Source: an uncultured Latescibacterota bacterium
GTDB lineage: Bacteria > Latescibacterota > UBA2968
Length of the DNA stretch: 64,000 nucleotides
Reading direction: 5' to 3'
Assembly (NCBI GenBank): GCA_951812755.1
Contig: OX638329.1
Span: forward strand, 481,339-545,338
Part shown: piece after piece, positions 34,078 through 53,785 of the stretch
Layout: each line of letters starts with the position of its first letter
Position numbering within the stretch: the first letter of the stretch is position 1
Notes under the pieces: model-generated
The model's database searches: none
Told to the model about the DNA's origin: nothing
The model's input: only the letters and a program-made list of their open reading frames with translations
Translations under genes and position numbers: made by a program

Positions 34078-36436
34078 ATCGCAATGCCTCCACGGGATTC
34101 ATTTTTGCCGCTTTTACAGCTTGCAGGCTCACTGTTCCGATTACGACCAATAGGGTCAGTACACCGCCCAGCACGAATGCCCCAAACCCCAACTCAATCC
34201 GATACGCGAAGTCCGATAGCCATTTGCTCATTGCCCAGTACGCGACTGGCCAGGCGAGTACATTTGCAATGCCCACCAGCAGAACGAATTCGCGCGATAG
34301 CAAATGCACGACGTTTGTGATGCTGGCGCCCAATATTTTGCGAATGCCGATTTCTTTGGTGCGCCGGGTTACGGCGAGTGCTGTCAATCCAAATGCCCCC
34401 AGACATGCGATAAAAATGGCAAAGAAGGTTCCGTATCCGATCAGGCGATGCCATCGCTCTTCGGTTCTGTATTGGCGATCGATGCCTTCGTCGAGGAATG
34501 AATAACGGAATCCAGAGGACTGTGTTATGGCTTCCCATTGTTCTTTCATGAATGACAGTGTGCCGGGAATATCGTCGGCGCGCACCCGAATTAGCAGTCG
34601 GCTAAAGTATTGATTTGCTGGGTCGCATTTTAGAAGTGCGGGGCCAATTTTGTGGTGGAGAGAGCGAAAATGAAAGTCGTTTACCACGCCGATCACTGTC
34701 ATATCATCGAAAAATTTCAGTGTTTTTCCGAGGGGTGGTCCCGGTCCCAGTTGTTTGGCCAGGGTTTGGTTGATGATTACAGACGCGGTGGGGTCTGTCG
34801 CAAGGTCCCGTGAATAATTTCGGCCTTCGATCAATTTGATGTCGAGCGTTGGCACAAAGTCGTAATCGACAAAGAAGACTTCCACGCCGCTTAAGCTCGT
34901 TCCATCATGTACCACATTCCCGCGCGACTGGTATCCATTGCGCATCATGTGATATATTTGAGTCACACCGAGAATTGCGTGATGGGATAACAGGGCGTTT
35001 TGATAGGTTTCAATGCCTTTTGGTCCCAGGTCTCGCAGTTTGCTGAGGCGACTGACGGCAATGAGGTGTTCGCTGTCAAATCCCAGGGGTTTGGTCCGCA
35101 AATAGTCGAGTTGAGAGGTCATGATGAGGGCACAGATGAGGAGAATCGCAGACATCGCGATCTGGAAGACCACGAGAAACTGGCTGAATAATCCCGCACT
35201 GACAATTTTCAATCTGCCTTTGAGTACCTGAATTGGCATAAAGCCGGACAGGACAAAGGCTGGATAGGTACCTGCGAGCAGGCCGACAATTAGAGTTAGA
35301 CCCACTATCGAGGCAAATGCCGGACCATCCAGATGTGCAACCAAAGATAGTTTTTGCGCCATGAGGTTGTTGAACAATGGCAGTAAAAGTTCTGATAGGG
35401 CGAGTCCGATTACAAATGCTATGAGGCTTAAGAGCACGGATTCTGTGAGAAATTGCACAATGACCTGGGGCTTGTGTGCGCCAACGACTTTGCGGATGCC
35501 GATTTCTCGCGCCCGAGAAGCTGACCGTCCCAGGGCGAGGGTCATAAAGTTCACGCATGCGACAAAGAGTACCAGGGCTGTAATGCACAACAGGATGTAG
35601 CTATATGCCGGGTCAGTGGCGGGTTCGGGCGCGCGGATATTTGGATTGAAATGCACATTGGCAAGGGGCTGCAATTTCATCTCTTGCTTTTCCCATATGA
35701 TGATGGGCCACGATCGATTTAGAAAAGGCGGAAATAGCTTTTCCAGGTCTTCGGTGCGGACCTGATTGTGTAGCAAGACGTAAATACTGGTGTTATTGGA
35801 ATTCCAGGTGTTGAGCGCGTCTTCCACATTCTCATAAGATTGGATGCAGTCGAATTGAATGCTGGATGTTTCGGAGGTGTCTTTTACGATGCCTGTAATT
35901 AGAGCTTGATGGATTTTTGCGTTTCTTGTGAAAGAGATTGATTTCCCCATTGGGTCGGTGTTGCCGAAGAATTTTTGGGCGACGGTTTCCGATATGATAA
36001 TGGTATCTTTGCGGTCCAGTGCTGTTGTTGGGTCGCCTGTTATCAGAGAAAATGAGAATACATCCCAGAAACCCGGATCGACATAAATAACGCGCTCTTG
36101 AGATGAATGGTCGCCGTATTGGAGTGTGCGAGATGTGGTATAGATTCTGACGACGTGTTGCATTTGTGTGGGGAATGCTTCTGCCAATGCTGGTCCAAGG
36201 GGACCCGGCATAGCAGCCGAGGCATCGCTGCCTTCTCCCACTTCTCCCCTATTGTAAACGCGATAAATTCGGTCTGCTTTTTCGTGGAATGCGTCAAAGG
36301 ACCATTCGTGTCGTATGTACAGGAATGTCAAGATGCAAAACGCAATGCCGATTGCGAGTCCAGTAATGTTGATGGCCGAATACACTTTGTAGCGGACGAG
36401 ATTGCGGTACGCTACGGTCAGATAGTTGTGGAGCAT
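34070..36436 (-). CDS. FtsX/MacB-like ABC permease E (operon 3)
   Basis: 788 residues: MLHNYLTVAYRNLVRYK leader, TM1 (INITGLAIGIAFCILTFLY), periplasmic domain, REIGIRKVVGAHKPQV module, second periplasmic domain, KEIGIRKILGASITN module, end NPVEALRYE. AAAGGA precedes the ATG. It starts 30 bases after permease F and overlaps the sigma-factor gene. E and F share the same first 40 residues, so they arose by duplication. Confidence 0.9.
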   Translation of the reverse strand: MLHNYLTVAYRNLVRYKVYSAINITGLAIGIAFCILTFLYIRHEWSFDAFHEKADRIYRVYNRGEVGEGSDASAAMPGPLGPALAEAFPTQMQHVVRIYTTSRTLQYGDHSSQERVIYVDPGFWDVFSFSLITGDPTTALDRKDTIIISETVAQKFFGNTDPMGKSISFTRNAKIHQALITGIVKDTSETSSIQFDCIQSYENVEDALNTWNSNNTSIYVLLHNQVRTEDLEKLFPPFLNRSWPIIIWEKQEMKLQPLANVHFNPNIRAPEPATDPAYSYILLCITALVLFVACVNFMTLALGRSASRAREIGIRKVVGAHKPQVIVQFLTESVLLSLIAFVIGLALSELLLPLFNNLMAQKLSLVAHLDGPAFASIVGLTLIVGLLAGTYPAFVLSGFMPIQVLKGRLKIVSAGLFSQFLVVFQIAMSAILLICALIMTSQLDYLRTKPLGFDSEHLIAVSRLSKLRDLGPKGIETYQNALLSHHAILGVTQIYHMMRNGYQSRGNVVHDGTSLSGVEVFFVDYDFVPTLDIKLIEGRNYSRDLATDPTASVIINQTLAKQLGPGPPLGKTLKFFDDMTVIGVVNDFHFRSLHHKIGPALLKCDPANQYFSRLLIRVRADDIPGTLSFMKEQWEAITQSSGFRYSFLDEGIDRQYRTEERWHRLIGYGTFFAIFIACLGAFGLTALAVTRRTKEIGIRKILGASITNVVHLLSREFVLLVGIANVLAWPVAYWAMSKWLSDFAYRIELGFGAFVLGGVLTLLVVIGTVSLQAVKAAKMNPVEALRYE

Positions 36437-36466
36437 TTTATTTTCCTTTGGTGAACAGGTTACTAA

Positions 36467-38932
36467 TTACTCATATCGCAACGCTTCCACAGGATTCATT
36501 TTTGCCGCTTTCACGGCTTGCAGACTCACTGTTCCGATTACGACCAACAGTGTCAGCAAGGCGCCGAGTGCAAATACGCCAACTGTTAGCCCCATGCGGT
36601 AGGCAAAGCTCTGTAGCCACCAGACCATTACCAGATACGTCAGGGGCCAGGCACATAGATTTGCGACTATAACCAGTATTACAAATTCGCGCGATAGCAG
36701 GGATACGATATTTAAAACCGAGGCGCCCATAATTTTTCGAATGCCTATTTCTTTAGTTCGCCTTGCCACGGCCAGTGCCGTCAACCCAAATGCGCCCAGA
36801 CATGCGATGAAAACAGCCAAAAATGTTGCATAGCCCACGATTTTGCTCCAACTCAAAAAGTCCCGGTAATAATTTTCAATATCCTCTTGCAAAAACGTGA
36901 AGTAAAACGGCTCGCCAGCGGGCGCGATCTCTTTCCACCCCGCTTCCAGATATTTCAGGGTCCCGGCAATATCGTCAGATTTGATCCGCACAAAGAAGTT
37001 TTCTGCTTCATCTCCCATCGATGGATTCAGTAAAAGCATCGCGGGTTGAACTTTTTGCTGGAGTGGCAACAAATAAAAATCCTGTACCACGCCAATGACC
37101 CGGGTAATCCCTTTTGACGCTCTCAATAAGTTTGCTGCTTTGCCTTCAAATGTGATGGTCTGTCCAATTGGATCGTCCCATCCCATCTGTTTGACCAGTT
37201 CTTCGTTCACGAGAGTGCTGCCCTGTGCTTGTTCATTCGCATTAGCGTCAAAATCTCGTCCCGATAGTACCTTCATCTCGAATGTTTTTACAAAACTATA
37301 ATCCACATAGAAGCGTTTTATGCCCACAGACTGTCCTTGTTCACCTTTTCCGTCTCTGCGGTCTTGCCACCCTTCGTCCAGTAGTGGATACCTCACTGTA
37401 GTACATCCTATCACCTTGTGATGTTGCAGATAACGGTTCTTGAGCAAATCTTGCTCCCCTCTCATTTCGGGAAGCCCGTCTGTGTTAATAGAAATCACAA
37501 ATTCCGTGTTAAAGCCCAGGTCTTTTTCTTTTACAAATTGAAGTTGATAGACCATGATCAGGGTGCAGGTAATCAAAGCACTCGACATGGCAAACTGTCC
37601 AAAGACGAGTCCGCGACCAAACAAGTTGCGATGGCTCAGCTTAAACCGCCCCGTGAGTATGCGAACCGGGTTAAACCCGGAGATCATAAATGCGGGATAG
37701 CTGCCTATCAGGAGACCGACGACTGTGACCAGAGCGATCAAAAAGGCAAAAGTAGGCCAGGTAAAAATGTTGTCGAAGGACAGGTTCTGATGCATAAATT
37801 CGTTAAAAAATGGCAGTACCAGTTCGGCGAGTGATAGACCCAAAACTACGGCTACAAGGCTCAATAAAATCGACTCGCTTAAGAATTGCCAAATCAGTTG
37901 AGGACGCACAGCACCGACAACTTTGCGAATGCCTACTTCTTTTGTTCGGGTGACCAACCGACCTACTGCAAGGTTGACAAAATTGATGGAAGCCATTACC
38001 AGAACCAGCAATGAAAGGCAGATTAGTCCATACCCGTTCATTGGATCCCGGGGTGCCTTTAAGCCGTGATTGGTGGTTTCCATAAAATCTATTCGATGAT
38101 GCAGATTTGTCAGCGGCTGAAGTCGCAAATGTAAGTTGTCCGCTGAGATCTCTGGTCGCAGCATGTGCGCTTTTACAATCGAACGCATCGTGGGATCTAT
38201 ATCTGTAGCTTTTGTGCTTTCAGTCAGTTGAACGTAAGTGTTACACGCAAAGCTCTTCCAATCATCTGCTTCTTTGTGCAGAAAAAACCACAGGTGTTGA
38301 TATGGTAGCAACATATCAAACTGAATTGATGAGTTGTCGGGTATGGGTTCGGCAATGCCGGTTACTGTGAAGTCAGCGCGTTCGTGGCTCCATAGAGATC
38401 GCAGTGTCAGTTGTTTTCCGATTGGATTTTCATTTCCGAAAATTTTCTTTGCTGTTTCAGCACTCAATACAACAGATTGCGGATGTTTGAGGGCAATTTC
38501 CGAATCGCCAGAGCGAAGGAGAAACGAAAACATGTCCAAGAATCCGTGATCTACGATCAGGAATGGTAACTTGAAGATCTGGTCTCCGTACGTAACCTGT
38601 ATCTCTCGATCATCGGGGTCGTCTCCTCGTCCAGCAACTAAGCGCACAGCCTGGTCCATGCCTGTTGCAGTTTGTACCAATTCATTGCGCAAAGCGGTCG
38701 GCAATGTGGGTATGCGATAAAATTTGTTATCGGGACCGCGGTATTCAGCATATACTCGATAGATTCGATCGGCATTCTTGTGAAACGCATCATAAGACCA
38801 TTCGTGTCGTATGTACAGGAATGTCAAGATGCAAAACGCAATGCCGATTGCGAGTCCAGTAATGTTGATGGCCGAATACACTTTGTAGCGGACAAGGTTA
38901 CGATACGCTACGGTCAGATAGTTGCGGAACAT
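36467..38932 (-). CDS. FtsX/MacB-like ABC permease F, first gene of operon 3
   Basis: 821 residues: MFRNYLTVAYRNLVRYK leader, TM1, a longer first periplasmic domain than in its paralogues, KEVGIRKVVGAVRPQL module, second periplasmic domain, KEIGIRKIMGASVLN module, end NPVEALRYE. AGGGAG lies eight bases before the ATG. The third sigma-54 promoter is about 50 bases upstream. The last 300 bases are nearly the same as in permease E. Confidence 0.9.
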   Translation of the reverse strand: MFRNYLTVAYRNLVRYKVYSAINITGLAIGIAFCILTFLYIRHEWSYDAFHKNADRIYRVYAEYRGPDNKFYRIPTLPTALRNELVQTATGMDQAVRLVAGRGDDPDDREIQVTYGDQIFKLPFLIVDHGFLDMFSFLLRSGDSEIALKHPQSVVLSAETAKKIFGNENPIGKQLTLRSLWSHERADFTVTGIAEPIPDNSSIQFDMLLPYQHLWFFLHKEADDWKSFACNTYVQLTESTKATDIDPTMRSIVKAHMLRPEISADNLHLRLQPLTNLHHRIDFMETTNHGLKAPRDPMNGYGLICLSLLVLVMASINFVNLAVGRLVTRTKEVGIRKVVGAVRPQLIWQFLSESILLSLVAVVLGLSLAELVLPFFNEFMHQNLSFDNIFTWPTFAFLIALVTVVGLLIGSYPAFMISGFNPVRILTGRFKLSHRNLFGRGLVFGQFAMSSALITCTLIMVYQLQFVKEKDLGFNTEFVISINTDGLPEMRGEQDLLKNRYLQHHKVIGCTTVRYPLLDEGWQDRRDGKGEQGQSVGIKRFYVDYSFVKTFEMKVLSGRDFDANANEQAQGSTLVNEELVKQMGWDDPIGQTITFEGKAANLLRASKGITRVIGVVQDFYLLPLQQKVQPAMLLLNPSMGDEAENFFVRIKSDDIAGTLKYLEAGWKEIAPAGEPFYFTFLQEDIENYYRDFLSWSKIVGYATFLAVFIACLGAFGLTALAVARRTKEIGIRKIMGASVLNIVSLLSREFVILVIVANLCAWPLTYLVMVWWLQSFAYRMGLTVGVFALGALLTLLVVIGTVSLQAVKAAKMNPVEALRYE

Positions 38933-38978
38933 TTTGTTCTCCCTGGCTATTGCTGCGAGTTCTTTGTGCCAATTTTAT

Positions 38979-38995
38979 ATGCAATAATCGTGCCA
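38979..38995 (-). promoter_or_regulatory. Sigma-54 promoter of operon 3
   Basis: Reading minus: TGGCACGATTATTGCAT, the full -24/-12 consensus with GG-N10-GC, about 50 bases before permease F. The flanking sequence differs from operons 1 and 2, so conservation of the box is informative. Confidence 0.9.
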
Positions 38996-39056
38996 AAAAT
39001 ACAAGTGTTGAAATAACAGTGAGTTATGAAAATCGCTTGAAATGGACGGACGAATA

Positions 39057-39097
39057 AGTGTCCGATTTTGATACAGTAGTGTCCGAAAATGAACACT
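39057..39097 (-). promoter_or_regulatory. Twin upstream activator site of operon 3
   Basis: TGTCCGATTTTGATACA then GTGTCCGAAAATGAACAC in plus orientation. It is identical to the operon 2 copy although the DNA on both sides is unrelated, which supports selection for binding of one regulator. Confidence 0.8.
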
Positions 39098-39103
39098 TTT
39101 GAA

Positions 39104-39385
39104 ATGTGAAGTAGGAGGTGTGAAGTAGGAAGTGGGAGATGGGAAGTGTGAAAAAAATAAATAGACGCAACCATACGCTATGAGAAAAGTGATAAGCCAA
39201 AACCATCACGCACAGCGTGTGAGTCCGTCTCGCAGCGGAATCTTTATGCCATTGTAACTGTGCAGGCCATAGCATGGTGTATGACCACAGAAACGATTTA
39301 CGCTGTGCCAGCCCCTCGGCGTTTGAGAGCGGCATTTTTTGCCTACTTTTTTTTGCTGTTGAAAAAAAGTAGGTCGCCGAAGGCA
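39104..39385. repeat. Intergenic stretch with GAAGTAGGAGG-type repeats and a long A/T hairpin
   Basis: The gap 39098-39442 has no gene. At 39104-39150 a degenerate direct repeat (GAAGTAGGAGGTGT, GAAGTAGGAAGTGG, GAAGTGTG) is visible. At 39342-39373 the arms CCTACTTTTTTTT and AAAAAAAGTAGG form a hairpin, extended by GCC/GGC nearby, that could act as a terminator on either strand. Confidence 0.5.
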
Positions 39386-39442
39386 TGAAAAAAACTTTAT
39401 ACTTCGCTGTACTACAACAAATGAATTATGCACACCCTTCAA

Positions 39443-40606
39443 TCATGTCCTTTTACCCGGTATCCGAAATACCAGCACAACGCCGAGCAACATCAATATC
39501 GCGCTGATTTGAAAAGCCCGGCGCAGACCATAAGCATCTGCCATGATGCCGAGGAGCAACATTGCCACGCCGCGAAGCGCGAATCCCGCGCCCATGTAAA
39601 GGCCGTTGGCAAATGCCCGGTTTTCTGGGCAGCTTTCCTGTACCATTGCCATGACCACGGGACCGGTGGAGAGGGCGACAAAGCCCAGGATTATTAAAAT
39701 GGGAAATAAGGCCCAGCCCTGGGTTTCGAGAAAGACAAATAGCAGGAGGGGGGTTGCGATCATGGAGAAGCCGAGTATTTGTTTGCGTCCCCATCGGTCG
39801 CTTACCCATCCGCCGATTAGCGCGCCGCCAATGCCCGCGCCTTCCAGTACGGAAAGCGATGCGCCCGATAGCCACAGGCTGGCGCCTTCCTCGGTCAAGA
39901 AGGTGGGCAGAAATGCGGTTAGAGAGGCCATCATGAACGCGCGAACAAAAACGATTCCCGATAGGGGTATCATGACTGGTGCCATGCGTTTTAGGGCAGC
40001 CTGCCAGGTCAGTGCTTTATACGCTGATATGACGCGGCTGGCAACGCTTCTCATTCGCAACAAGAGTACCAGCGAAGCTACAATACCGGCGGGTATTAAA
40101 TAAGGTGTTCCACCAATTCCCCACAGGCCGATGACGCTTACGATTAAAATGGGTCCCAGGGTGCGACCGAGTTCACCGCATAACATCCAGATGCCCATTC
40201 CGCGACCGAGGTTGGAACCCGAGAGCGTTCCGGCCATTGCGGGTCCAACTGCGTGAAATGCCGCGGAGCTAAATCCCGTGATTAACAATAGCACAGTCAG
40301 GGAGAGATAACCGTGCGCGATGCCGAGCAGGCTCATGGCGATGCCCGTTATTGCAGGTCCCAGGATCACGAGAAATCGCAAGTTCAGGCGGTCTGCCTGA
40401 TGTCCGATGATGGGTTGAAATACCGAGGGTGCCTGTCTGACGACCATTAACAAACTGGCTTCGGTTTTGGATAGGGACAGGGTTTGAATGAAGATGGGGA
40501 GTAAGGGGGGTAAGAATCCGCTGTATGTGTCGTGTACTGCATGCCCGCCGGAGAGGGTGATTACGTCGCGGGTCTGAAAACGGCTGTTATCGCTATTTGA
40601 GGACAA
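39443..40606 (-). CDS. Major facilitator superfamily transporter (FSR-like)
   Basis: 387 residues with about 12 hydrophobic segments. The N-terminal block GGHAVHDTYSGFLPPLLPIFIQ and the Q-A-P-S-V-F-Q-P-IIGHQADR loop resemble the fosmidomycin-resistance branch of MFS. Loop 8-9 has the usual SDRWGRKQIL motif. Likely inner-membrane efflux of a small molecule; substrate unknown. It runs toward operon 3, convergent with nothing, and starts nine bases after the small membrane protein gene. Confidence 0.85.
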   Translation of the reverse strand: MSSNSDNSRFQTRDVITLSGGHAVHDTYSGFLPPLLPIFIQTLSLSKTEASLLMVVRQAPSVFQPIIGHQADRLNLRFLVILGPAITGIAMSLLGIAHGYLSLTVLLLITGFSSAAFHAVGPAMAGTLSGSNLGRGMGIWMLCGELGRTLGPILIVSVIGLWGIGGTPYLIPAGIVASLVLLLRMRSVASRVISAYKALTWQAALKRMAPVMIPLSGIVFVRAFMMASLTAFLPTFLTEEGASLWLSGASLSVLEGAGIGGALIGGWVSDRWGRKQILGFSMIATPLLLFVFLETQGWALFPILIILGFVALSTGPVVMAMVQESCPENRAFANGLYMGAGFALRGVAMLLLGIMADAYGLRRAFQISAILMLLGVVLVFRIPGKRT

Positions 40607-40615
40607 GGACAGGTC

Positions 40616-40846
40616 TTACAGTTTGATCACGGCGATGAGAATGCCCGTTATTGCGACCATGGTCGTGATGAGATAGGTGAAGCGAGACCCAATGAGTTTA
40701 TTCGTCTCGACAATCTGCAGGCGCAACTCTTTGCTGTCTTCACGCATCTGCAGGCGTATATCTTGCAGGTCTTCGCGTAGATAAGCAATGCCCCAATGGG
40801 TATTATCCGCAGATGTGGTCGCTTCAGATTCAGGCGTTTCGGCCAT
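40616..40846 (-). CDS. Small coiled-coil protein with C-terminal membrane anchor
   Basis: 76 residues from MAETPESEATTSADN (AGGAG seven bases before ATG 40846). A heptad-like stretch (LREDLQDIRLQMREDSKELRLQIVETNKLI) precedes one TM helix (YLITTMVAITGILIAVIKL). This layout resembles DUF1640/CCDC90-like membrane coiled-coils. Co-directional with the MFS gene. Function unknown. Confidence 0.65.
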   Translation of the reverse strand: MAETPESEATTSADNTHWGIAYLREDLQDIRLQMREDSKELRLQIVETNKLIGSRFTYLITTMVAITGILIAVIKL

Positions 40847-40867
40847 AACAGATCTCCTGTTTCTCTC

Positions 40868-40931
40868 TGGAGAGAGGGGTCGGCTTCTTATGAACAAGAT
40901 ATGCTATCACAGCAAAAAGTCAATGGTCTAT
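40868..40931 (+). repeat. 64-bp direct repeat, left copy
   Basis: From TGGAGAGAGG to AATGGTCTAT; matches 42641-42704 at 59 of 64 positions by eye, in the same orientation. The two copies bracket the AAA-ATPase/nuclease gene. Confidence 0.85.
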
Positions 40932-40947
40932 AGCCCCCGTCATCGCG

Positions 40948-42495
40948 TTACGCATGTACAACCTCAAAGGCCGTTATATTGCGGGTGTTCTTGCTGAATT
41001 CTACGGCGATCAGGTGGATCGGCTGGTCTAAACCGCGATATTTGTCCGCATATCCCTTTTCTTTTAGTTGCGCCATTGCAGTGCCCTCAGACGCCAGTTC
41101 CACCACTTTGAACTCGAAGAGATAAACGTTATCGTTGAAGTGAACGGCCATATCGACACGCCCATGGCTGCTGCTTTCCTCTACGGTGATGTCAAGTCCC
41201 AGGCCAGCGAAATAGGAATAGAACACGCTGGCGTAGTAGCCTTCAAAATTGGCGATGTCGTTGTTGGTGTACCACTCATAGGGAATACTGGCGAAGAAGG
41301 CGTGGAATAGTGTCTTGAGTCCCTCGAAGTCATTGGCTTCTATCAGGCGGTAGAGTTGGACGCTATTCGCCATCTGCCCAGACGGGTCTTTCACCAGGTA
41401 GCGCAACAGGCTTTCGTTGAGGCTCTGGCGCACTTCCCGATTGGGATAACCCAACCGATAGAGGGACTTGCCGCCCAGGTTTTCCTCACTGGTAATGGTC
41501 AGATACCCGGTCTGAAACAACAGGGCTTCGGTCGCGATTTCATCGACATCAAAGGTCGATAACAAGTCGCTACCGCCCATCATTTCGTCGAGTTTCAGAG
41601 AACTGATGTGGCGTTTGAATAGGGTCTCGACCAGAAAGGTCGGCGTACCGGTCTCGAACCAATAGGCTTCGAAGCTGTGCTTTCGAAACAGCAGGAGGAT
41701 GTCGAAGGGGTTATAGACCTTCTCCTCACCCAGCCAGCTATAGCCGTTGTACCAATCTCGGATTTCGTTTCTGTCAAGGCCGGGCAGTTCTGGCGCGAAT
41801 ACGGTGTCGAGGTCTGCTTCGGTATAGCCACAGATAGCAGAATAGCGTGGGTCAATGGTAATATCTGTGAGGTTGTTGAGGCCAGAGAACAGATGTACCT
41901 TGGAGAACTTGCTGACGCCAGTGAGGAATGTGAATTTGATGTGGGCATCATTGGACTTGATGGTGGAATACAGACCGCGCAGAAAGTCGCGGTTGGCGCG
42001 CGCAATCTCCGGTACTTCCAAAGCATCGAGAATCGGCTTGTCGTATTCATCAACCAGAACGACGACGCGCTGTCCTGCTTTCTCGTGAAGGATTTCCAAA
42101 ATAGACGCGAAACGTCCGGGGGCTGTGGTGTACTCGGAAACGATCCCTGCTCGACGTTCTATGGCCGCGAGTTGTTCCATGAGGTTTGCCTGCAGGTAGC
42201 CCACCTCTTTGAAATTGCCGCTGCCAAAGTCGAGTCGCAGGACGGGATAGCGAACCTGCCAATCCCAGTGGTCGTGGATATACAACCCCTCAAAGAGCGG
42301 TTCATTGCCCTCGAACAGTTCCTTCAGCGTGTCCAGAAACAGGCTTTTGCCAAAACGACGAGGACGCGATAAAAAATAGTGCTTGTCCTCATTCAGTAGC
42401 CGATAGATGTAGGCGGTCTTGTCAACATAGTAGCAGTTTTCTTCGCGGATCTCGCGGAAGGTCTGAATGCCGATGGGCAGTCTGCGTTTGGTCAT
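40948..42495 (-). CDS. AAA-ATPase-like / PD-(D/E)XK nuclease family protein
   Basis: 515 residues. The N-terminal part matches the AAA_ATPase-like family (MTKRRLPIGIQTFREIREENCYYVDKT, then FLSRPRRFGKSLFLDTLKELF with a P-loop-like RPRRFGKS, and VVLVDEYDKPI as Walker B). The C-terminal part (FEGYYASVFYSYFAGLGLDITVEESSSHGRVDMAVHFNDNVYLFEFKVV) is a PD-(D/E)XK domain with D, E and K in DMAV...EFKVV. This architecture is abundant in anaerobes and Bacteroidetes and is thought to be selfish or defensive. It lies between two direct repeats, which suggests it came in as a unit. Confidence 0.88.
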   Translation of the reverse strand: MTKRRLPIGIQTFREIREENCYYVDKTAYIYRLLNEDKHYFLSRPRRFGKSLFLDTLKELFEGNEPLFEGLYIHDHWDWQVRYPVLRLDFGSGNFKEVGYLQANLMEQLAAIERRAGIVSEYTTAPGRFASILEILHEKAGQRVVVLVDEYDKPILDALEVPEIARANRDFLRGLYSTIKSNDAHIKFTFLTGVSKFSKVHLFSGLNNLTDITIDPRYSAICGYTEADLDTVFAPELPGLDRNEIRDWYNGYSWLGEEKVYNPFDILLLFRKHSFEAYWFETGTPTFLVETLFKRHISSLKLDEMMGGSDLLSTFDVDEIATEALLFQTGYLTITSEENLGGKSLYRLGYPNREVRQSLNESLLRYLVKDPSGQMANSVQLYRLIEANDFEGLKTLFHAFFASIPYEWYTNNDIANFEGYYASVFYSYFAGLGLDITVEESSSHGRVDMAVHFNDNVYLFEFKVVELASEGTAMAQLKEKGYADKYRGLDQPIHLIAVEFSKNTRNITAFEVVHA

Positions 42496-42640
42496 ATTAT
42501 GTACCTTTGTCTTGCGATCTTTTCAAATGACCTCGACATTGTCTTGTTGGGGTGTGAAGCATGAGAAGTCGTCGGGAAGGGATTAAATCAAGTGTTTGGA
42601 GATGATATCAAATTCTGCCCTGTGAGATGCTCTGGGCCTT

Positions 42641-42704
42641 TGGAGAGAGGTGTCAGCTTCCTGTGAAGAAGATATGCTATCACAGCAAAAAGTCAATGGT
42701 CTAT
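42641..42704 (+). repeat. 64-bp direct repeat, right copy
   Basis: Partner of 40868-40931. The remainder of the 42496-42857 gap holds no gene; 42785-42825 is an A/T-rich tract (AATTAAAAATTAAAAATTAAG) that may carry promoter sequences for the downstream cluster. Confidence 0.85.
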
Positions 42705-42857
42705 CGACTATTTCACCATAGGCTAAGTACAGCAGTGATTCTTAGGGTTGCGGGAATGTATTTGGGGACATAATTTAAGTGCGAATTAAAAATTAAAAAT
42801 TAAGAATTAGGAGCGGGGCGAACTGACTGCTGACTGCTTATTTTTAAGGATTATTAC

Positions 42858-44021
42858 ATGTCTGATTATCCCCCCATTCGCGCGATTACCCGGGGACCTG
42901 AGTTCCACTGGTTTGGTTATTACGATAAGTGGCAAATAGACCCTTCAGGCCGGTTCGCGCTCGGTATGGCGGTGGATTTTGAACACCGGTCGCCTTCGGC
43001 GGATGATACGGTTGCGCTGGGTGTTATTGATATGGAGGATGGGGATACGTGGTCTGAGTTCGGGCGCACGCGGGCGTGGTGCTGGCAACAAGGGTGTATG
43101 TTGCAGTGGATTCCCGACTCGGATACGGAGGTTATTTTTAATGATCGCGAGGGGGATGCGTTTGTCTCGCGGATTTACAATGTAAAAACGGGGGCGATTC
43201 GCACGCTTTCGCCCGCGATTTATACGCTTTCGCCCGATGGGAAGACAGCGATTGGGGCTGATTTTCGCCGGATTAATCACATGCGGCCCGGGTATGGGTA
43301 TGCGGGGATTCCAGATCCCAATCGCGATGTGCGTGCGCCGGATGATGTGGGTGTTTATACGGTGGATCTGGAAACGGGTGCGTCAAGGCTTGTTGTTGCG
43401 ATAGCCGAGGTTGCTGCGATTCCGTATCCGCATGGCGATATTTCCGGGGCGCGGCATTATTTTAATCATTTGCTGTTTAATACGGATGGATCGCGGTTCA
43501 TTTTTTTGCATCGCTGGCGATTTGGAGAGGGGGGCTTTGACACGCGGATGATGACGGCAAATGCCGATGGGTCAAATTTGCATGTGGTTGATGATTACGG
43601 CAAGATGTCGCATTTTATCTGGCGCGATCCAGAGACGATTCTCGGATGGGCGTATCACCCGTCGCACGGGAATAAGTTTTATCACTATCGGGATCTTTCC
43701 GAGGCGGAGCCAGAGGTGATTGGTGATGGGGTTATGACGGTTAATGGTCACTGTACGTATTTGCCGGGCAATGAGTGGATTCTCAACGATACGTATCCGT
43801 CACAGGGCGACCGCAATCAGATTCCGTATCTTTATCAGGTTGCGACTGGCAAGCGCGTTGATCTGGGGATTTTTCCGTCGCCGGAGCCTTATACGGGTGA
43901 GTGGCGTTGTGATTTGCATCCGCGCTATAGTCCCGATGGACAGTTTGTGGTGATTGATTCGGCGCATAAGGGCGATGGGCGGCAGATGTATCGGATTGAG
44001 GTCGGTGATGTTGTGAAATAA
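42858..44021 (+). CDS. TolB/WD40-like beta-propeller protein
   Basis: 387 residues without a signal peptide. Repeated blade motifs include FGYYDKWQIDPSGRFALGM, YTLSPDGKTAIGADF, FNTDGSRFIFLHRWR and RYSPDGQFVVIDSAHKGDGR. The overall pattern (H-W-F-G-Y-Y-D-K start, HPSHGNKFYHY, DTYPSQGDRNQIPYLY) resembles oligogalacturonate lyase-type propellers of the pectate lyase 22 group, but catalytic identity cannot be shown. It starts a co-directional run with two PhyH genes and an enolase-superfamily gene, which suggests handling of a sugar acid or polysaccharide fragment. Confidence 0.7.
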   Translation: MSDYPPIRAITRGPEFHWFGYYDKWQIDPSGRFALGMAVDFEHRSPSADDTVALGVIDMEDGDTWSEFGRTRAWCWQQGCMLQWIPDSDTEVIFNDREGDAFVSRIYNVKTGAIRTLSPAIYTLSPDGKTAIGADFRRINHMRPGYGYAGIPDPNRDVRAPDDVGVYTVDLETGASRLVVAIAEVAAIPYPHGDISGARHYFNHLLFNTDGSRFIFLHRWRFGEGGFDTRMMTANADGSNLHVVDDYGKMSHFIWRDPETILGWAYHPSHGNKFYHYRDLSEAEPEVIGDGVMTVNGHCTYLPGNEWILNDTYPSQGDRNQIPYLYQVATGKRVDLGIFPSPEPYTGEWRCDLHPRYSPDGQFVVIDSAHKGDGRQMYRIEVGDVVK

Positions 44022-44033
44022 AGGAGATATGAG

Positions 44034-44777
44034 ATGGCTATAGCTGAAGTACCTGCTGTATTGACGGAAGAGGAGATGCTGCATTTTCGCACGCGGGGCT
44101 TTCTCGGTCCGTATTCGCTGTGTTCGGAGGCGGAGATGGCGGGGCTTCGCCCGGCGATTGAAGAGGTGCTGGAGACAGATCCGCCGAATGGTAAGAATCG
44201 CATTCACAACCGGCATCTGGATAGTCGCGCGATTTACGATTTGTCAACGCATCCCGAGATTCTCAGTCGGATGGTGGCTCTGTACGGCGCGGATTTGTTG
44301 TTGTGGCGCACGAATTTTTTTATCAAATACAAGGGTACGAAGGCGATTCCATGGCACCAGGATTTCAATTATTGGCCGCTCGAGCCGCCGATTATTGTTT
44401 CGGCGTGGATTGCGGTGGATGCTTCGACAAAGGAGAATGGAAATTTGCAGCTTATTCCCGGTTCACATCGCAAAATTATTCCCCATATTAAAGCCACGCC
44501 CGATGTGCAGTTTCGGGAGATGGCCGATGCGGGGTATTACGATTCGGAGCAATTGGTCGATCTCGAGATGCAGCCCGGTGAGTTTATTTTGTTTAATGAG
44601 CGTACGTTGCATCACTCGAAAGCCAATTTCTCGGATTTGCGGCGCATTGGTCTGGCGGTGCGCGCGATTCCTCCGATTGTCCATGTGCTCAAGTACGATT
44701 CCGAAGACCACGCGCTTCAGGTTATTCACGGTGAAGATACGATGGGGTTTAATCGCGTTGCACAACCGCCGTTATAG
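44034..44777 (+). CDS. Phytanoyl-CoA dioxygenase (PhyH) family oxygenase, copy 1
   Basis: 247-residue Fe(II)/2-oxoglutarate dioxygenase. The facial triad is visible: H-x-D in IPWHQDFNYWPL near residue 105 and the distal His in NERTLHHSKANFSD near 190, followed by the 2-oxoglutarate-binding Arg region (RRIGLAVR). The jelly-roll core reads IIVSAWIAVDASTKENGNLQLIPGSH. Substrate unknown. It starts 12 bases after the propeller gene with GGAG upstream. Confidence 0.88.
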   Translation: MAIAEVPAVLTEEEMLHFRTRGFLGPYSLCSEAEMAGLRPAIEEVLETDPPNGKNRIHNRHLDSRAIYDLSTHPEILSRMVALYGADLLLWRTNFFIKYKGTKAIPWHQDFNYWPLEPPIIVSAWIAVDASTKENGNLQLIPGSHRKIIPHIKATPDVQFREMADAGYYDSEQLVDLEMQPGEFILFNERTLHHSKANFSDLRRIGLAVRAIPPIVHVLKYDSEDHALQVIHGEDTMGFNRVAQPPL

Positions 44778-44798
44778 GGGAATGACCTCTCCCCCCAG

Positions 44799-44823
44799 CC
44801 CCCTCTCCTGAAAGGAAAGGGGG
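44799..44823. repeat. C-rich/G-rich hairpin between PhyH and enolase-family genes
   Basis: CCCCCTCTCCT and AGGAAAGGGGG form an 11-bp stem with a three-base loop. No U-tract follows, so it is more likely an extragenic palindrome or mRNA stabiliser than a terminator. Confidence 0.5.
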
Positions 44824-44860
44824 AGTTCAGTTTAATTCTACTGAAAGAGGAAATTATTAT

Positions 44861-46048
44861 ATGAAGATTACCAATATTGAGACGTTTATTGTCGATGCGG
44901 GTTGGCGCCCGTGGATTTTTGTTCGGGTGGATACAGATGAGGGTATTAGCGGCTGGGGGGAGTGCAGCGATGGTCGCAGTCCTTATGGGGTTACGGGTAC
45001 GGTGCGCGATTTGACGCCTTTGATTATCGGCAAGGATCCGCGTGCTTATGAGATGCGTTTTTGGGATATGTTGCGGGGGACGCGACAAAGTCCGGGGGGT
45101 ATTGCGGCGAAGGCGATTGCGGGGGTTGAACTCGCGCTTATTGATATTAAGGCGCGTGCGCTCGGTATTTCTGTTGTGGAGCTTTTTGGGGGTCCAACGC
45201 GCGAGCAGGTTCGCGTTTACTGGTCGCATTGTGGCACTTCGCGTGCGCGCAATAGCGATTTGCTCAATACGCCACCGCTTCGCACGATGGATGATATTGC
45301 CGCGCTGGGGCGAGAGGTTGTGGAGAGGGGATATACGGCGCTGAAGACGAATATTGTGGTACCGGGGGATCCGGCCAGTGTCTATTTTGGGGGTTTTGGC
45401 GGCGAACCGGGGACGACGGATGGCGTGGTTACGCGGCAGATTCTCCGGCATATTGAGACGCTTATTGGTACGTTTCGAGATGCTGTGGGTCCCGATGTCG
45501 ATATCAATCTGGATCTGAATTTTAATTTTAAGCCCGAGTCGTGTATGCGTATTGCCAGGGTGCTGGAACAATTTGATTTGCTGTGGCTGGAGATCGATAT
45601 GTACGAGCCCGATGCGATTCGGCAGATTAAGGATTCGACGAGTACCAAAATTTGTACGGGTGAAAATTTGTTTTATATGCGCGAATTTATTCCTTATTTC
45701 CAGGCGCGGTCTGCGGATGTGTTTATGATCGATGTGCCGTGGAATGGGTTTGCGCAGTCTAAAAAGGTTGGCGATTTGGCCGAGGCGTATCAACTCAATG
45801 TTGCGCCGCACAATTATTATAGCCATCTTTCGACATGTATCAGTGCGAGCTTGTGCGCGGTTTTGCCGAATGTGCGTATTATGGAGATTGATGTTGACGA
45901 TGTGCCCTGGCGCGAAGATATGGTGGCCAGTGTGCCGCATATTGAGAATGGGTATTTGACGATTCCCTCTGGTCCGGGTTGGGGTATCGAGATGGTTGAA
46001 GAGGTGCTCAAAGCGCATCCCTGGGATAAGGGGAATGCGAATTGGTGA
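44861..46048 (+). CDS. Mandelate racemase/muconate lactonizing enzyme (enolase superfamily)
   Basis: 395 residues. N-terminal capping domain (MKITNIETFIVDAGWRPWIFVRVDTDEGISGWGE), then the TIM barrel: Lys in ALKTNIV near 166, metal ligands Asp in INLDLNFNF near 212, Glu in LLWLEIDMYEP near 246 and Glu in ICTGENLF near 269, and a catalytic-type His in NVAPHNYYSHLS near 322. These fit an acid-sugar dehydratase/racemase of the family; the substrate cannot be read. GAGG precedes the ATG. Confidence 0.88.
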   Translation: MKITNIETFIVDAGWRPWIFVRVDTDEGISGWGECSDGRSPYGVTGTVRDLTPLIIGKDPRAYEMRFWDMLRGTRQSPGGIAAKAIAGVELALIDIKARALGISVVELFGGPTREQVRVYWSHCGTSRARNSDLLNTPPLRTMDDIAALGREVVERGYTALKTNIVVPGDPASVYFGGFGGEPGTTDGVVTRQILRHIETLIGTFRDAVGPDVDINLDLNFNFKPESCMRIARVLEQFDLLWLEIDMYEPDAIRQIKDSTSTKICTGENLFYMREFIPYFQARSADVFMIDVPWNGFAQSKKVGDLAEAYQLNVAPHNYYSHLSTCISASLCAVLPNVRIMEIDVDDVPWREDMVASVPHIENGYLTIPSGPGWGIEMVEEVLKAHPWDKGNANW

Positions 46049-46090
46049 GCAGTAGGAGGGAAATCCTTTTCCCGATCCATTAATAGAGCC

Positions 46091-46130
46091 GTCATCGCGG
46101 CATGCTTAAAGCCGCGATCCAGAAGGTTTT
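46091..46130. repeat. Extragenic palindrome family III
   Basis: GTCATCGCGGCATG / AAGCCGCGATCC followed by AGAAGGTTTT, placed between the enolase-family and second PhyH genes. Confidence 0.7.
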
Positions 46131-46154
46131 GGTCGTTACTTTTGAGAGGACAAT

Positions 46155-46892
46155 ATGAATAATCAACAATACTTTTTTGAACTCGATGTCTATGGCTTTA
46201 CGGTTGTCGAAAATGTTTTGACGACTGAAGAAGCAGGGGAGATGCGCGAAGCCCTTATGCGTTGTGAGAAGGAAGTTGGCACGGAGGCCAGAAATCGGGG
46301 AACCGCTCGGCATGTCGCCAATTTGCCGGTGCTGGATCGCGTTTTTCACAAGACTATTGATCATCCGCGGATACTTCCGTTGCTGGAGCATTATCTGGAG
46401 AAGTCGCTTATTCTGGGGAGTCTCAATGCCCGCATTGTGCGTCCGGGCGATCCAGACCAGGGTTTGCACAGTGATATTCCATTGGAGATGCTCAATTTTA
46501 GTTCACCAGTTATGATGAATACGATCTGGATGCTGGATGATTTTTCGCCGGTAAATGGCGGTACGCGCGTGGTGCCGGGTTCGCATAAAAGTGGATTGGC
46601 TATCCCGCCAGAGAATGTGTCTGTCAAGCATATTGCACAACCCGAAGGATCTGCGGGTAGTGTTATTGTTATTAATGGTCAAATATGGCATGCTGGCGGC
46701 GCGAATACGGGGACTACGAATCGCCATGCGTTGTTCGGTCATTATCGCAAACGGATGTGTATGTTTCAAGTTGATCCCCACGATGGTTTTCCGCCTGAAT
46801 GGTTTGACGGGCTCACGGAGAGACAAAAGCAATTGATGCGGATGAGCAAGGGGCTTAGATCAGCCCATGCGGCGGATGCACATTTTCGATAA
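46155..46892 (+). CDS. Phytanoyl-CoA dioxygenase (PhyH) family oxygenase, copy 2
   Basis: 245 residues; H-x-D in QGLHSDIPLEM near 101, distal His in GQIWHAGGANTGTTNRHA near 178 and Arg in HYRKRMCMF near 200; core NTIWMLDDFSPVNGGTRVVPGSHKSG. Only distantly like copy 1, so not a recent duplicate. GAGAGG upstream of the ATG. Substrate unknown; it lies in the same catabolic-looking run. Confidence 0.88.
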   Translation: MNNQQYFFELDVYGFTVVENVLTTEEAGEMREALMRCEKEVGTEARNRGTARHVANLPVLDRVFHKTIDHPRILPLLEHYLEKSLILGSLNARIVRPGDPDQGLHSDIPLEMLNFSSPVMMNTIWMLDDFSPVNGGTRVVPGSHKSGLAIPPENVSVKHIAQPEGSAGSVIVINGQIWHAGGANTGTTNRHALFGHYRKRMCMFQVDPHDGFPPEWFDGLTERQKQLMRMSKGLRSAHAADAHFR

Positions 46893-46993
46893 GGCGGTGA
46901 GATGTAAGAGGGCCTCACACAAAGACACAAAGACGCAAAGATACAAGACGTTAAAGGCAATCCAGTGGGGTTGGGTGGATTTCTCACTTCACA

Positions 46994-47032
46994 GTGAACT
47001 GGTCTGAACTGCGACCAGTTGTACACCGTTCC
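46994..47032. repeat. Extragenic palindrome family II
   Basis: GTGAACTGGTCTGAACTGCG and ACCAGTTGTACACCGTTCC form the family II stem (AACTGG/CCAGTT). Other copies: 50060-50098, 58861-58900, and nested in 1906-2085 and 55046-55250. Confidence 0.7.
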
Positions 47033-47063
47033 TTCCTTCTCACTTCATAATTGGAGATACAAG

Positions 47064-47495
47064 ATGCTCGTTGGTATATCCCCATTGTTCAGTCCCGAGT
47101 TGTTGGCTGCGATTTATCGCATGGGACACGGAGATGAGATTGTTCTGGCAGATGCACATTTTCCCGGGCATTCGGTGAATGCCAATACGCTGCGGGCTGA
47201 TGGTTTGGGGGTTGCGGATTTGCTCGGGGCAATTTTGCCGCTGTTTGTGCTGGATACGTATGTGGATAGTCCGGTTTTTATGATGGATGCCGTGCCGGGC
47301 GATACGCTCGATCCCACAGTTGAGGCGTCTTATCGGGCTGTTATTGACGAGATATGGCCCGATACACCTCCGATCGCGCGTGTTGAACGCTTTGCTTTTT
47401 ACGAGCAGGCGAGACAGGCGTTTGCGGTTGTTATGACTGGGGAGACCGCAAAATATGGCAATGTTATTCTGAAGAAGGGTGTGACGCCGGTGTAG
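47064..47495 (+). CDS. RbsD/FucU-family sugar mutarotase
   Basis: 143 residues from [38 protein letters not shown] with its catalytic His and the DAHFPGHSV block are typical of FucU (L-fucose mutarotase) and RbsD, decameric enzymes that interconvert sugar anomers; the ending [11 protein letters not shown] with Tyr also fits FucU. GGAG precedes ATG 47064; an upstream in-frame ATG at 47019 falls in an extragenic repeat. It supports a sugar-catabolic role for the cluster. Confidence 0.85.
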
Positions 47496-47516
47496 GAGAG
47501 AAGGGAAAAATCGATG

Positions 47517-47543
47517 ACCTGTCCAAAAGGACAGGTTGTTTTT
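47517..47543 (+). terminator. Rho-independent terminator after the mutarotase gene
   Basis: ACCTGTCC-AAAA-GGACAGGT followed by TGTTTTTG. An eight-base stem with a four-base loop. Confidence 0.75.
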
Positions 47544-47628
47544 GTCCCTGGGGACGGTGTTTTGGGATTGTGAATGGTGTATTTTTGGGGTGAAATTAGA
47601 TATCATTCCAATCAATAGGAGGCATACC

Positions 47629-49395
47629 ATGGCTGTGACGACACTTGATTATGTGCCCTGTGCGCGTGTGGGAGATATTCCCGAGGGTGGGATTATGGCG
47701 GTGAATGTGGAGGGCCATGCGATTGCGCTGGCAAAGTCAGATGGCGAGATTCGGGCGGTGGATAATCGCTGCCCGCATATGGGGTATCCGCTGAGTGAGG
47801 GGTCGATTCACAATGGGTTGATTATTTGCCACTGGCATCACGCGCGGTTTGATCTGGTCAGTGGGTGTACGTTTGATCCGTTTGCGGATGATGTTCGGAG
47901 TTATCCGGTGGATGTGCAGGATGGTGAGATTTATGTCAATGTGCATGCCACGCATCCCGATCCGGTGGGGCATTGGAAGCGGCGGTTGAGCGAGAGTTTG
48001 GAGCAGAATATTAATCTGGTGATTGCCAAGTCGGTGATCGCGCTTCGGGGGCAGCGGGTCGATGGGGATGAGATTGCAGAGATTGGCGCGCGGTATGGTG
48101 CGTTGCGTCGGCGTCAGGGATGGGGGCCTGGGTTGACGATTTTGACGTGTATGGCCAATGTGGTGCCAAAGCTGGCGAATGAAGATCAGGTTCTGGCGCT
48201 GTATCAGGGGTTGTTGCATGTGGCGCAGGAGACGAGTAATGCATCGCCGAGGATTGTGTTTACGCCTCTGGAGACGGAGGAACTTACGCTGGCGCGCATT
48301 AAGGCGTGGTTCCGCTATCTGATTGAGGTGCGAAATGCCGATGGCGCAGAGCGCGCTTTGTTGACGGCGATTCAGATGGGAGCAACGCCTTCGGAGATGT
48401 GCGATATGCTGGTGGCTGCAGCGACGGATCACTTTTATCGCGATGGCGGGCATGTGCTGGATTTTATCAATAAGGGTTTTGAGGTGCTCGAGCGCATTGG
48501 ATGGGATAAGGCCGATGAGATTTTGCCTTCGCTGGTGGGGGTGCTTTCGGGTTCACAGCGGAGTGAGGAGTTGAATCGGTGGCGCAGTCCCGTTGATCTG
48601 GTGGCGTTGTTAAATGGCGCGTTTGATGAGCTTGAGGATCTGGTTCGGGAGGGCAAGGGCAAGACGTGGGACGATGCGGATGCTTTGACAGAAATTTTGT
48701 CAGGTGACGATCCGCATGCGATTGTGGATGGGTTGAAGGCGGCATTTGCCGGGGGGGCGACGCTGACGCAGTTGACGCAGACGCTGACTTATGCAGCGGC
48801 TTTGCGGATTGCGCGGTTTCACGTTAAGAATGAGTTTGCCGATTGGATTGCTGTGCTGCATACGCATTCGGCGGCTAATGCGCTGCATCAGTGTGCAAAG
48901 CGCGCGCCGTCTTTGGATCTGGCGCGGGGGATTTTTCACGGTGCAATGGCGCTGTATTTTGATCGGTGGTTTAATAAGCCAGCAGCCCGATTGCCGCAGG
49001 ATCAGCGTGCGACGCAACAGTTGCCGGAGGATGCGGATGAGTTGCTGGATTCTTTTGTGGCGTTGCTGGATACACAGGCACAGGTGGATGAGGCGGGGCG
49101 GATTGCGTATCGGTATTTGTCGCTGGGGCATCCGCGCGGTGCTTTGTGCGAGCGGTTGGGGCATGTGTTGCTGCGGGAAGATGCGGAGTTTCATTCGTTT
49201 CAGATGCTGGAGTCTGCGTTTAGTCAGGCAGAGGAGTTGGATGAGGAACGCGCACGGATTACGCTGGTGGGCGCGGCGCGCTATCTGGCAGCGCATGCAC
49301 CAACGGCGCGTGCGTTGGGACAGACGGCGAATTTGGCGCTTCGACTTCACAGGGGAGAGGATCTTTCGGCTGAGGATCCGGATGAGGATGTGTGA
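47629..49395 (+). CDS. Rieske [2Fe-2S] protein with a large helical C-terminal domain
   Basis: 588 residues from MAVTTLDYVPCARVGDIPEG, with AGGAGG six bases before ATG 47629. Residues 1-105 form a Rieske ferredoxin domain: C-P-H in DNRCPHMGYPLS and C-x2-H in IICHWHHARFDL, the four cluster ligands. The remaining 480 residues are all-helical, Ala/Leu-rich, with scattered His (DHFYRDGGHVLDFIN, AVLHTHSAANALHQ, GIFHGAMALYFDRW). They match no family I can name with confidence; a helical oxygenase or questin-oxidase-like fold is a guess. It probably delivers electrons to an attached active site. Confidence 0.75.
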   Translation: MAVTTLDYVPCARVGDIPEGGIMAVNVEGHAIALAKSDGEIRAVDNRCPHMGYPLSEGSIHNGLIICHWHHARFDLVSGCTFDPFADDVRSYPVDVQDGEIYVNVHATHPDPVGHWKRRLSESLEQNINLVIAKSVIALRGQRVDGDEIAEIGARYGALRRRQGWGPGLTILTCMANVVPKLANEDQVLALYQGLLHVAQETSNASPRIVFTPLETEELTLARIKAWFRYLIEVRNADGAERALLTAIQMGATPSEMCDMLVAAATDHFYRDGGHVLDFINKGFEVLERIGWDKADEILPSLVGVLSGSQRSEELNRWRSPVDLVALLNGAFDELEDLVREGKGKTWDDADALTEILSGDDPHAIVDGLKAAFAGGATLTQLTQTLTYAAALRIARFHVKNEFADWIAVLHTHSAANALHQCAKRAPSLDLARGIFHGAMALYFDRWFNKPAARLPQDQRATQQLPEDADELLDSFVALLDTQAQVDEAGRIAYRYLSLGHPRGALCERLGHVLLREDAEFHSFQMLESAFSQAEELDEERARITLVGAARYLAAHAPTARALGQTANLALRLHRGEDLSAEDPDEDV

Positions 49396-53067: not shown

Positions 53068-53478
53068 TCAGGCATCTCCGAGATTCAACTTTGTCCTCAA
53101 AGTGCGGCGAACACGCCGCATAACTTTAACCGCATCTTTAGACTCTTCAACAGTGGCATTTTCCCCGGGATAGCGAAATTCAACGGCAAATGGAGACAGG
53201 AAATTCATATCATCTCGAAGTATCTCAAGTTCGGTGTCAATATCTACAGCGAAATCTAATAATGCCAAAAGGTCGTGAATTTTTGGAAAATGAATGCGAT
53301 GAAGAACCAGAAAGGCTTTGAGATACTTTTCTATACATTGCTGCGCGCAAAAACACACATTGTCGGGAACGGGTTCTTTGCGTTTCCGGACCATTGTTGT
53401 GGCAGTGCGAAAGTCTTCTTCTGCTTTATAGATCCACGCTTGTATATCACCCGGCGGATTTGTAGAGGGTGCGTCCAA
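53068..53478 (-). CDS. HEPN-domain protein of an MNT-HEPN toxin-antitoxin pair
   Basis: About 136 residues if TTG 53478 is used (AGGAA upstream); the exact start is uncertain because the frame overlaps the MNT gene. Helical HEPN core: QAWIYKAEEDFRTATTMVRK, FCAQQCIEKYLKAFLVLHRI, HDLLALLDFAV, EFRYPGENATVEESKDAVKVMRRVRRTLR. The R-x4-6-H RNase motif of toxic HEPN is not obvious, so it belongs to the substrate-binding-like HEPN group. It forms a complex with the MNT partner, which lies upstream and overlaps by about 32 bases. Confidence 0.8.
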   Translation of the reverse strand: MDAPSTNPPGDIQAWIYKAEEDFRTATTMVRKRKEPVPDNVCFCAQQCIEKYLKAFLVLHRIHFPKIHDLLALLDFAVDIDTELEILRDDMNFLSPFAVEFRYPGENATVEESKDAVKVMRRVRRTLRTKLNLGDA

Positions 53479-53785
53479 GTTTGAAAATTTCCTCGAGAAA
53501 TGGATCAAAGTTTTGCAGATGGGTTTGAATTTCTTCAGGTGTACGCACGACAATATCCATCGCAACGTATTTTGGACGACAAATGCGAGCAATTGCGGCA
53601 CTTCGTGCTGTTGGCCGCAAATCTGTATCCATGATGACAAGCAAATCTAAATCGCTATTGGTCTTTGGCTCGCCATAAGCATAAGAGCCAAAGAGGATAA
53701 TCTGATCTGGATGAAAGTGTTCGACAATTTTGTTTGCGATCTCATCCAAAAGCGATTCTGTAATTTTTTGTACTTTTGCATTCAT
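53447..53785 (-). CDS. MNT nucleotidyltransferase of an MNT-HEPN pair
   Basis: 112 residues with the minimal nucleotidyltransferase motif GSYAYGEPKTNSDLDLLV (GSx-G-x8-SD-x-D, metal Asps near 43 and 45) and a third acidic residue in YVAMDIVV. MNT antitoxins of this type AMPylate or otherwise neutralise HEPN RNases. First gene of the pair. Complete by length. Confidence 0.88.
   Translation of the reverse strand: MNAKVQKITESLLDEIANKIVEHFHPDQIILFGSYAYGEPKTNSDLDLLVIMDTDLRPTARSAAIARICRPKYVAMDIVVRTPEEIQTHLQNFDPFLEEIFKLGRTLYKSAG

Follow-up and report, generated by a model that had tools for sequence, protein, structure and literature searches.

The window, i.e., the whole stretch of 64,000 nucleotides (64 kb) that was analysed, belongs to a 6.53-Mb single-contig genome (G000; in the following, G-numbers denote genomes and L-numbers fetched loci). 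It holds an AAA-ATPase_like/PDDEXK_9 (DUF1703) gene that is bracketed by two copies of a direct repeat T, denoted T_A and T_B. The features of the locus are:

39443-40606, minus strand: native left-hand neighbour gene (MFS transporter), syntenic in empty genomes
40616-40846, minus strand: small gene of the native locus, 76 aa, with a C-terminal hydrophobic stretch by inspection
40865-40931, minus strand: T_A, the downstream repeat copy, covering a promoter-like motif and the 5'UTR of the small gene
40896-40923, minus strand: promoter-like TTGACT-N16-TATCTT in T_A, a consensus match only
40948-42495, minus strand: AAA-ATPase_like + PDDEXK_9 (DUF1703) gene, 515 aa, intact, with Pfam matches and motifs
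42526-42636, minus strand: 5' stub of another dispersed gene, between T_B and the nuclease gene
42638-42704, minus strand: T_B, the upstream repeat copy, ending 143 bp before the start codon of the nuclease gene
42669-42696, minus strand: promoter-like TTGACT-N16-TATCTT in T_B, a consensus match only
42858-44021, plus strand: native right-hand neighbour gene, syntenic in empty and filled genomes

The gene product matches PF09820 with 226.1 bits (Pfam cut-off 26.1) and, with its C-terminal PDDEXK_9 domain, PF08011 with 79.7 bits (cut-off 25.5). These two DUF1703 models are its only Pfam matches, and no NCBIfam model, Rpn models included, is matched. The protein carries a Walker A (RPRRFGKS) and a Walker B motif (DEYD), for which we followed the motifs given in the DUF1703 passage of PMC1913061, as well as GRxDM...EFK (D...ExK). 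Within an alignment of nine copies, the catalytic residues of both nuclease and ATPase are nearly all invariant, the exception being the L012 copy (RPRHFGKS and DEND). The small gene (searched as the 80-codon frame 40616-40858) has no Pfam or NCBIfam match, and PADLOC defence models, Rfam and tRNA targets gave no match.

An earlier note on this DNA had reported that the two repeat copies match at 59 of 64 positions. This is borne out, and the match extends to 61/67 identical positions over 67 bp. The T_A/T_B pair scores 95.1 bits, while none of 100 first-order Markov shuffles of 40300-43400 exceeded 30.1 bits. T_A begins 17 bp past the stop codon of the nuclease gene, and the outer flank of T_B equals the native right flank of the empty sites described below. 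Two direct-repeat pairs of this class (45-400 bp, at least 85% identity, 0.4-3.5 kb apart) are found in the 64-kb window, i.e., T_A/T_B and 36255-36446/38751-38942. The latter, 192 bp long and 89% identical, lie at the two ends of a large FtsX/MacB-like permease gene (36467-38932); at L128, an FtsX-like gene likewise lies between 69-bp terminator-like repeats. Promoter-like matches are found twice in the region, once per T copy, where 1.8 are expected by chance. The T core with this motif is also found elsewhere, at unrelated positions of the window genome and of others in the genus, and is perhaps a shared regulatory site.

Composition of the insert

The repeats bracket the DUF1703 gene, as the earlier note had stated, but not just this gene, since the stub at 42526-42636 lies between them as well. 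It is 75-79% like the initial ~35 codons of genes in a different dispersed family; its N-terminus is like MADIDTISKYLIQHYPDHFACFALARDDVEVIEVI, its ATG is changed to AGG, and it shows in-frame stops. An intact relative of the stub gene has no Pfam match and a sub-threshold Rpn match (18.3 bits, cut-off 52.1), and it is only by this match that the stub gene may be called Rpn-like. Rpn-like genes showed no flanking repeats in the 4 testable of 5 loci tried. Given the stub of another gene inside, the window insert is layered rather than clean and reflects more than one event.

Composites are seen at other loci, too. At L013 and L070, a T-like leader and, behind it, the 5' part of a small-gene paralog precede a DUF1703 gene or fragment, and at L101 and L102 the short shared words CGCAAGAC and CAAA are found at the joint of a DUF3368 (PIN) gene and the leader. 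Together with the window stub, these composites and joints indicate that slots are used, deleted and reused. An insertion inside the DUF3368 (PIN) gene was considered for L101/L102 and rejected, since the short shared words fit deletion junctions in a cassette array better. At L014, a 116-bp fragment of a DUF1703 gene (5805-5920) abuts another ORF (5919-6401) with a sub-threshold PDDEXK_9 match; a fuller DUF1703 copy is kept at this locus in G007, G008 and G009.

Empty and filled sites in related genomes

Window positions 35000-48000 were blasted against the fetched loci. The syntenic locus was recovered in six congeneric genomes and not in G007, G009, G010 and G014. Five of the six (G005, G008, G011, G012, G013) lack the gene, and their small gene and flanks are joined through a single 67-bp repeat. 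That is, the window has the gene and two T copies, five relatives have one T and no gene, and the outer flanks of the T copies are the two native flanks. G006 carries a DUF1703 gene at the same place that is identical to the window gene at 98% of the amino acids over 322 residues; the contig ends inside the gene, such that the second repeat is out of view there.

According to the earlier note, looping out between the repeats would remove the gene and leave one T as leader of the small gene. The comparison with empty loci of relatives, which it had proposed, returned exactly this predicted product in 5/6 genomes, although the genomes give no evidence of a looping-out event. The arrangement it had named as contradicting its idea, i.e., both repeats without the gene, was not seen in the six genomes with the locus.

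An unrooted tree of the ~3.3-kb right flank groups G000 with G006 (support 0.993). Since the filled genomes thus form one clade, one gain is at least as simple an account of the distribution. At third codon positions, G000 and G006 differ at 9/322 sites of the window gene compared to 35/373 and 50/396 sites of the two flanking genes (85/769; p-value 2.5e-6 vs. the gene). That is, the gene is far closer than its flanks, such that gene and flanks do not share their history, which speaks for a recent exchange or transfer.

Between G000 and G006, T_B differs at a single position (66/67). Among the 6 sites where T_A and T_B differ, T_A shows the empty-site base at 4 and T_B at 1, while T_B shares 3 of them with the T of a second, paralogous locus. 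Judged by these letters, T_A looks like the native copy and T_B like the more foreign one, and the six sites would favour a recombination of T with DNA of a related slot over a purely local duplication. At 4 further sites, T_A and T_B have the same base and the empty sites another one, which points in the opposite direction or to a conversion between T_A and T_B.

Further empty sites are available for the inserts at L095 (4 genomes) and L078 (3 genomes). The L095 site comprises 16 bp in the four genomes, which are not a T, vs. 2270 in L095, where the insert directly follows a promoter-like TTGACA...TACACT belonging to the native gene. The empty genomes of the L078 site carry unrelated 100-116 bp in place of the insert. 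For the L160 site, the family offered matches of only 66-78%. L095 also shows a 69-bp direct repeat (2240-2308/3939-4007; 66/69) around a 454-aa gene that is unrelated to the DUF1703 family.

Flanking repeats and cargo at other loci

The DUF1703 gene is present in 11/11 genomes of the genus and in 0/4 of the family's four other genera; G000 has four full copies and two fragments. Many genomes are multicopy, led by G046 and G050 with 19 PF09820 matches each. Close copies are found in several phyla, and the named close matches are mostly Latescibacterota MAGs. Copies at L164, L167, L180, L182-L185, L190 and L195, which are 69-79% identical in protein and partly located on chromosome-size contigs, are labelled Gammaproteobacteria, Pseudomonadales, Acidobacteria, Vicinamibacterales and Spirochaetia, suggesting transfer between phyla.

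We screened the 31 full-length congeneric copies, of which 27 were testable (at least 300 bp on both sides), for direct repeats of at least 40 bp and at least 80% identity between the 600-bp flanks. Respective repeats are found for 8/27 copies (window, L032, L011, L085, L088, L102 and both L103 copies), for 3/228 control ORFs from the fetched loci other than the window, and for 0/13 control ORFs in the window. The difference between 8/27 and 3/228 has a p-value of about 7e-7, or 2e-7 without one of the three repeat-flanked controls (L087), which is a split copy of the DUF1703 gene itself. Only about six congeneric loci are solid, since the L103 tandem pair is counted twice and L032 is weak (80%). 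No flanking repeat was detectable at these thresholds for the other 19/27 copies. Among further full copies from other genomes, 4/64 have repeats (L160, L206 and the tandem arrays L169 and L207) and 60/64 do not. The earlier note had suggested checking other members of the family for flanking direct repeats; these are indeed more common than around controls (8/27 vs. 3/228), but 19/27 and 60/64 copies are without a detectable one.

For the tandem cases L103, L169 and L207, a duplication of the gene itself could explain the repeats. The tandem pair of L103 (6490-9918) is 99% identical except for ~250-560 of the coding sequence (59-85%), i.e., a sharply bounded exchanged segment, and L169 (2228-7298) comprises three tandem DUF1703 copies with ~220-bp related spacers on a Latescibacteria chromosome. 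Wide recent mosaicism is not shown: of 465 pairs compared, only one with an overall identity below 82% contained a 150-bp window that reaches at least 97%.

Within the genus, T is 58, 67, 167, 261 or 288 bp long depending on the locus. At several loci, T consists of a 3' gene end, i.e., that of a PhyH-like dioxygenase gene at L088 (its last 58 bp), a histidine-kinase gene at L085 (261 bp), a tyrosine-recombinase gene at L011 (288 bp; PF00589) and a D-2-hydroxyacid dehydrogenase-like gene at L160 (161 bp), where all names but that for L011 come from reading the translation. Since every locus has its own T sequence, T does not belong to a mobile element. L160 and L206 (91-bp repeat; labelled Gammaproteobacteria) show the window layout, each with the repeat at +15 after the stop codon. 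The T copies differ by 1-15%, such that no insertion is fresh enough to show a clean duplication.

The T-to-T distance is near 1.7 kb at five loci (1706 in the window; L085, L088, L160 and L206 within ~20 bp). A fixed-length mobile unit with a leader of ~130 bp was nevertheless rejected, as the leaders show no relationship to each other and that of the window is a stub left by another gene. The homology between DUF1703 copies often stops near the stop codon, and its left end varies from about -12 to -190.

The dioxygenase 3' end is a hot spot, which we read in nine genomes (leaving out the probe matches G012:C92 and G013 C427). It holds a DUF1703 gene in G013 and a degenerate one in G006, along with two more genes in G006 that are Xre-RES pair-like by inspection. 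A DUF433/DUF5615 pair is found in G000, G005, G007 and G011, and at least DUF433 in G009 (the models were confirmed on the G011 copies only); G008 and G010 have neither the DUF1703 gene nor this pair. A second, mostly truncated dioxygenase 3' end (T') closes the insert in 5/9 genomes, with 107 bp in G000, 43 in G005, 137 in G006, 137 in G011 and 58 in G013, and the native terminator comes after the distal T' in G000, G005, G006 and G011. If the T copies of the dioxygenase locus are taken as markers of a fresh local duplication, T' is not consistently nearest to the T of its own genome. Other bracketed cargo comprises MNT/HEPN in L085, UPF0175/DUF3368 in L087 and a MazF-like gene in L109 (by inspection). 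Since the hot spot brackets toxin-antitoxin-like DUF433/DUF5615 pairs instead, the bracket is not tied to the DUF1703 gene. The DUF1703 gene is thus either carried along by a wider process or one of its users.

Origin of the bracketed insert and known systems

We read the locus as a gene-sized insert that was acquired at the promoter/5'UTR of the small gene, with the 67-bp repeats being the duplicated long and variable target, and assign a probability of about 0.62 to this reading. The event would have been a gain, either in the ancestor of G000 and G006 or in their exchange pool. Here, incoming gene-bearing DNA would join the chromosome by recombination over T on one side, such that T is left on both sides of the insert and every later gene entering the slot would land behind a T copy. 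T x T recombination could remove the insert (empty sites) or multiply it (tandem arrays L103, L011 and L169), and short-homology deletions would fuse the leftovers. The DUF1703 nuclease may or may not help the insertion, e.g., by a staggered cut that would make the duplication; a joining enzyme, a circle or an intermediate was not seen. The many copies without detectable repeat, the small number of solid loci, the divergence of the T copies and the stub in the insert speak against the target-duplication reading.

Single-T empty sites are also the expected remnant of T x T recombination. The T-gene-T arrangement might thus be ancestral and have been lost by looping out, with the empty sites being scars instead of targets; as the tree is unrooted, a single ancestral loss shared by the five empty genomes is conceivable. 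We consider this unlikely: the filled clade is found among empty genomes, where a gain is one event while a loss requires a prior T duplication, and the empty L078 and L095 sites hold their unrelated 100-116 bp and 16 bp instead of a T. On the other hand, the two repeats could be copies of a shared regulatory leader, with the bracketing being unrelated to mobility. In line with this, the last 36 bp of T, promoter-like motif included, do not vary among the two window copies and the five empty sites, a 31-38 bp T core recurs elsewhere (L015 5294-5324; L072-L076), and the T copies hold the region's only two promoter-like matches, at the chance expectation given above. Nevertheless, the duplication reaches 31 bp past the core, both outer flanks correspond to those of the empty site, and the brackets of other loci consist of the 3' ends of coding sequences rather than of leaders, which makes a mere leader very improbable.

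A more active role of the gene is conceivable, in which the AAA+/PD-(D/E)XK protein is itself the mobilising enzyme of a one-gene transposable element, where two far-apart nicks and gap filling result in a long variable duplication. While the conserved catalytic residues of the nine aligned copies (with the Walker variants of L012), the high copy numbers of G046 and G050, the close copies in several phyla and the frequent end of homology near the stop codon would suit such an element, the dioxygenase bracket holds DUF433/DUF5615 pairs without such a gene between the repeats, MNT/HEPN and UPF0175/DUF3368 pairs are bracketed too, no terminal inverted repeats are among the pairs listed, and the left end is variable. 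We therefore regard it as rather improbable. Little credence is likewise given to DUF1703 genes as minimal mobile elements, i.e., an ORF and its ribosome-binding site with little other DNA, whose own protein would nick the target at two distant positions such that 60-300 bp of it are duplicated, and which would move neighbouring toxin-antitoxin pairs in trans; the respective slots would lie behind active promoters or at gene 3' ends.

With regard to DNA transposons, terminal inverted repeats were not found at the insert ends among the 5 inverted pairs listed, and a short target duplication of fixed length is not observed (58-288 bp, variable). Integron gene cassettes carry single genes or toxin-antitoxin pairs and are separated by repeats. 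Unlike in integrons, the repeats studied here are locus-specific copies of neighbouring genes (58-288 bp), and no integron integrase was seen nearby; the recombinase fragment of L011 scores far below the NCBIfam integrase cut-offs.

The preferred reading, i.e., insertion with long target duplication, corresponds to a known mode, which is here extended to the DUF1703 family. Such insertions are described for restriction-modification genes of Helicobacter pylori, after Nobusato et al. 2000 (also in passages of PMC1643837 and PMC4978471), and Kobayashi and colleagues state that restriction-modification systems can insert with target duplications that are long and variable, around 100 bp (in passages of both PMC3874152 and PMC3031569). 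As far as these passages go, the common features are a gene-sized insert without counterpart in relatives, a repeat found once in the empty site and twice around the insert, variable direct repeats of ~100 bp, selfish nuclease-coding genes, and multiplication through the repeats. Given that the structural features tested here are present, the locus fits this pattern. The window insert comprises only the DUF1703 gene and the stub, i.e., no restriction-modification genes; in the same passages, such cargo is a frequent association and not a structural part of these insertions. In contrast to the H. pylori cases, we observe a DUF1703 gene and toxin-antitoxin-like pairs in Latescibacterota, with one slot being reused and T located between cassettes.

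For Cardinium cCpun, 25 DUF1703 paralogs with recombination and horizontal transfer are described (PMC6387759). Like the window family, they have the same two domains, are multicopy and show paralog recombination and inferred horizontal transfer, while the DUF1703 passages of PMC6387759 and PMC1913061 mention neither flanking repeats nor empty sites nor a way of inserting. Likewise, flanking repeats and empty sites are not described for this family in the DUF1703 (PF09820/PF08011) literature covered by our search, which included few subscription journals. Rpn/YhgA-like recombination-promoting nucleases are linked with RecA-independent horizontal transfer (PMC5350276); the possibly Rpn-like stub in the window insert is a likeness, and the membership of the window protein in another Pfam family a difference. 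For transposed genes of Arabidopsis, flanking direct repeats of host sequence are reported that are present at the empty orthologous site, and circle excision with homologous integration is proposed (passages of PMC2869330). These concern a eukaryote and other genes, and many of the repeats given there are shorter.

Given the empty sites, the long duplications that are particular to each locus and the reuse of a slot by toxin-antitoxin pairs, the spread of DUF1703 genes, which are multicopy in scattered bacteria, becomes testable. A mode of gene mobility known mainly from Helicobacter restriction-modification genes is thereby widened to another class of nuclease genes. Elsewhere in the window, positions 53423-53802 are 95.5% identical to a duplicated minimal-nucleotidyltransferase gene region of L012 (4066-4442 and 9931-10309), i.e., another small gene that is apparently mobile.
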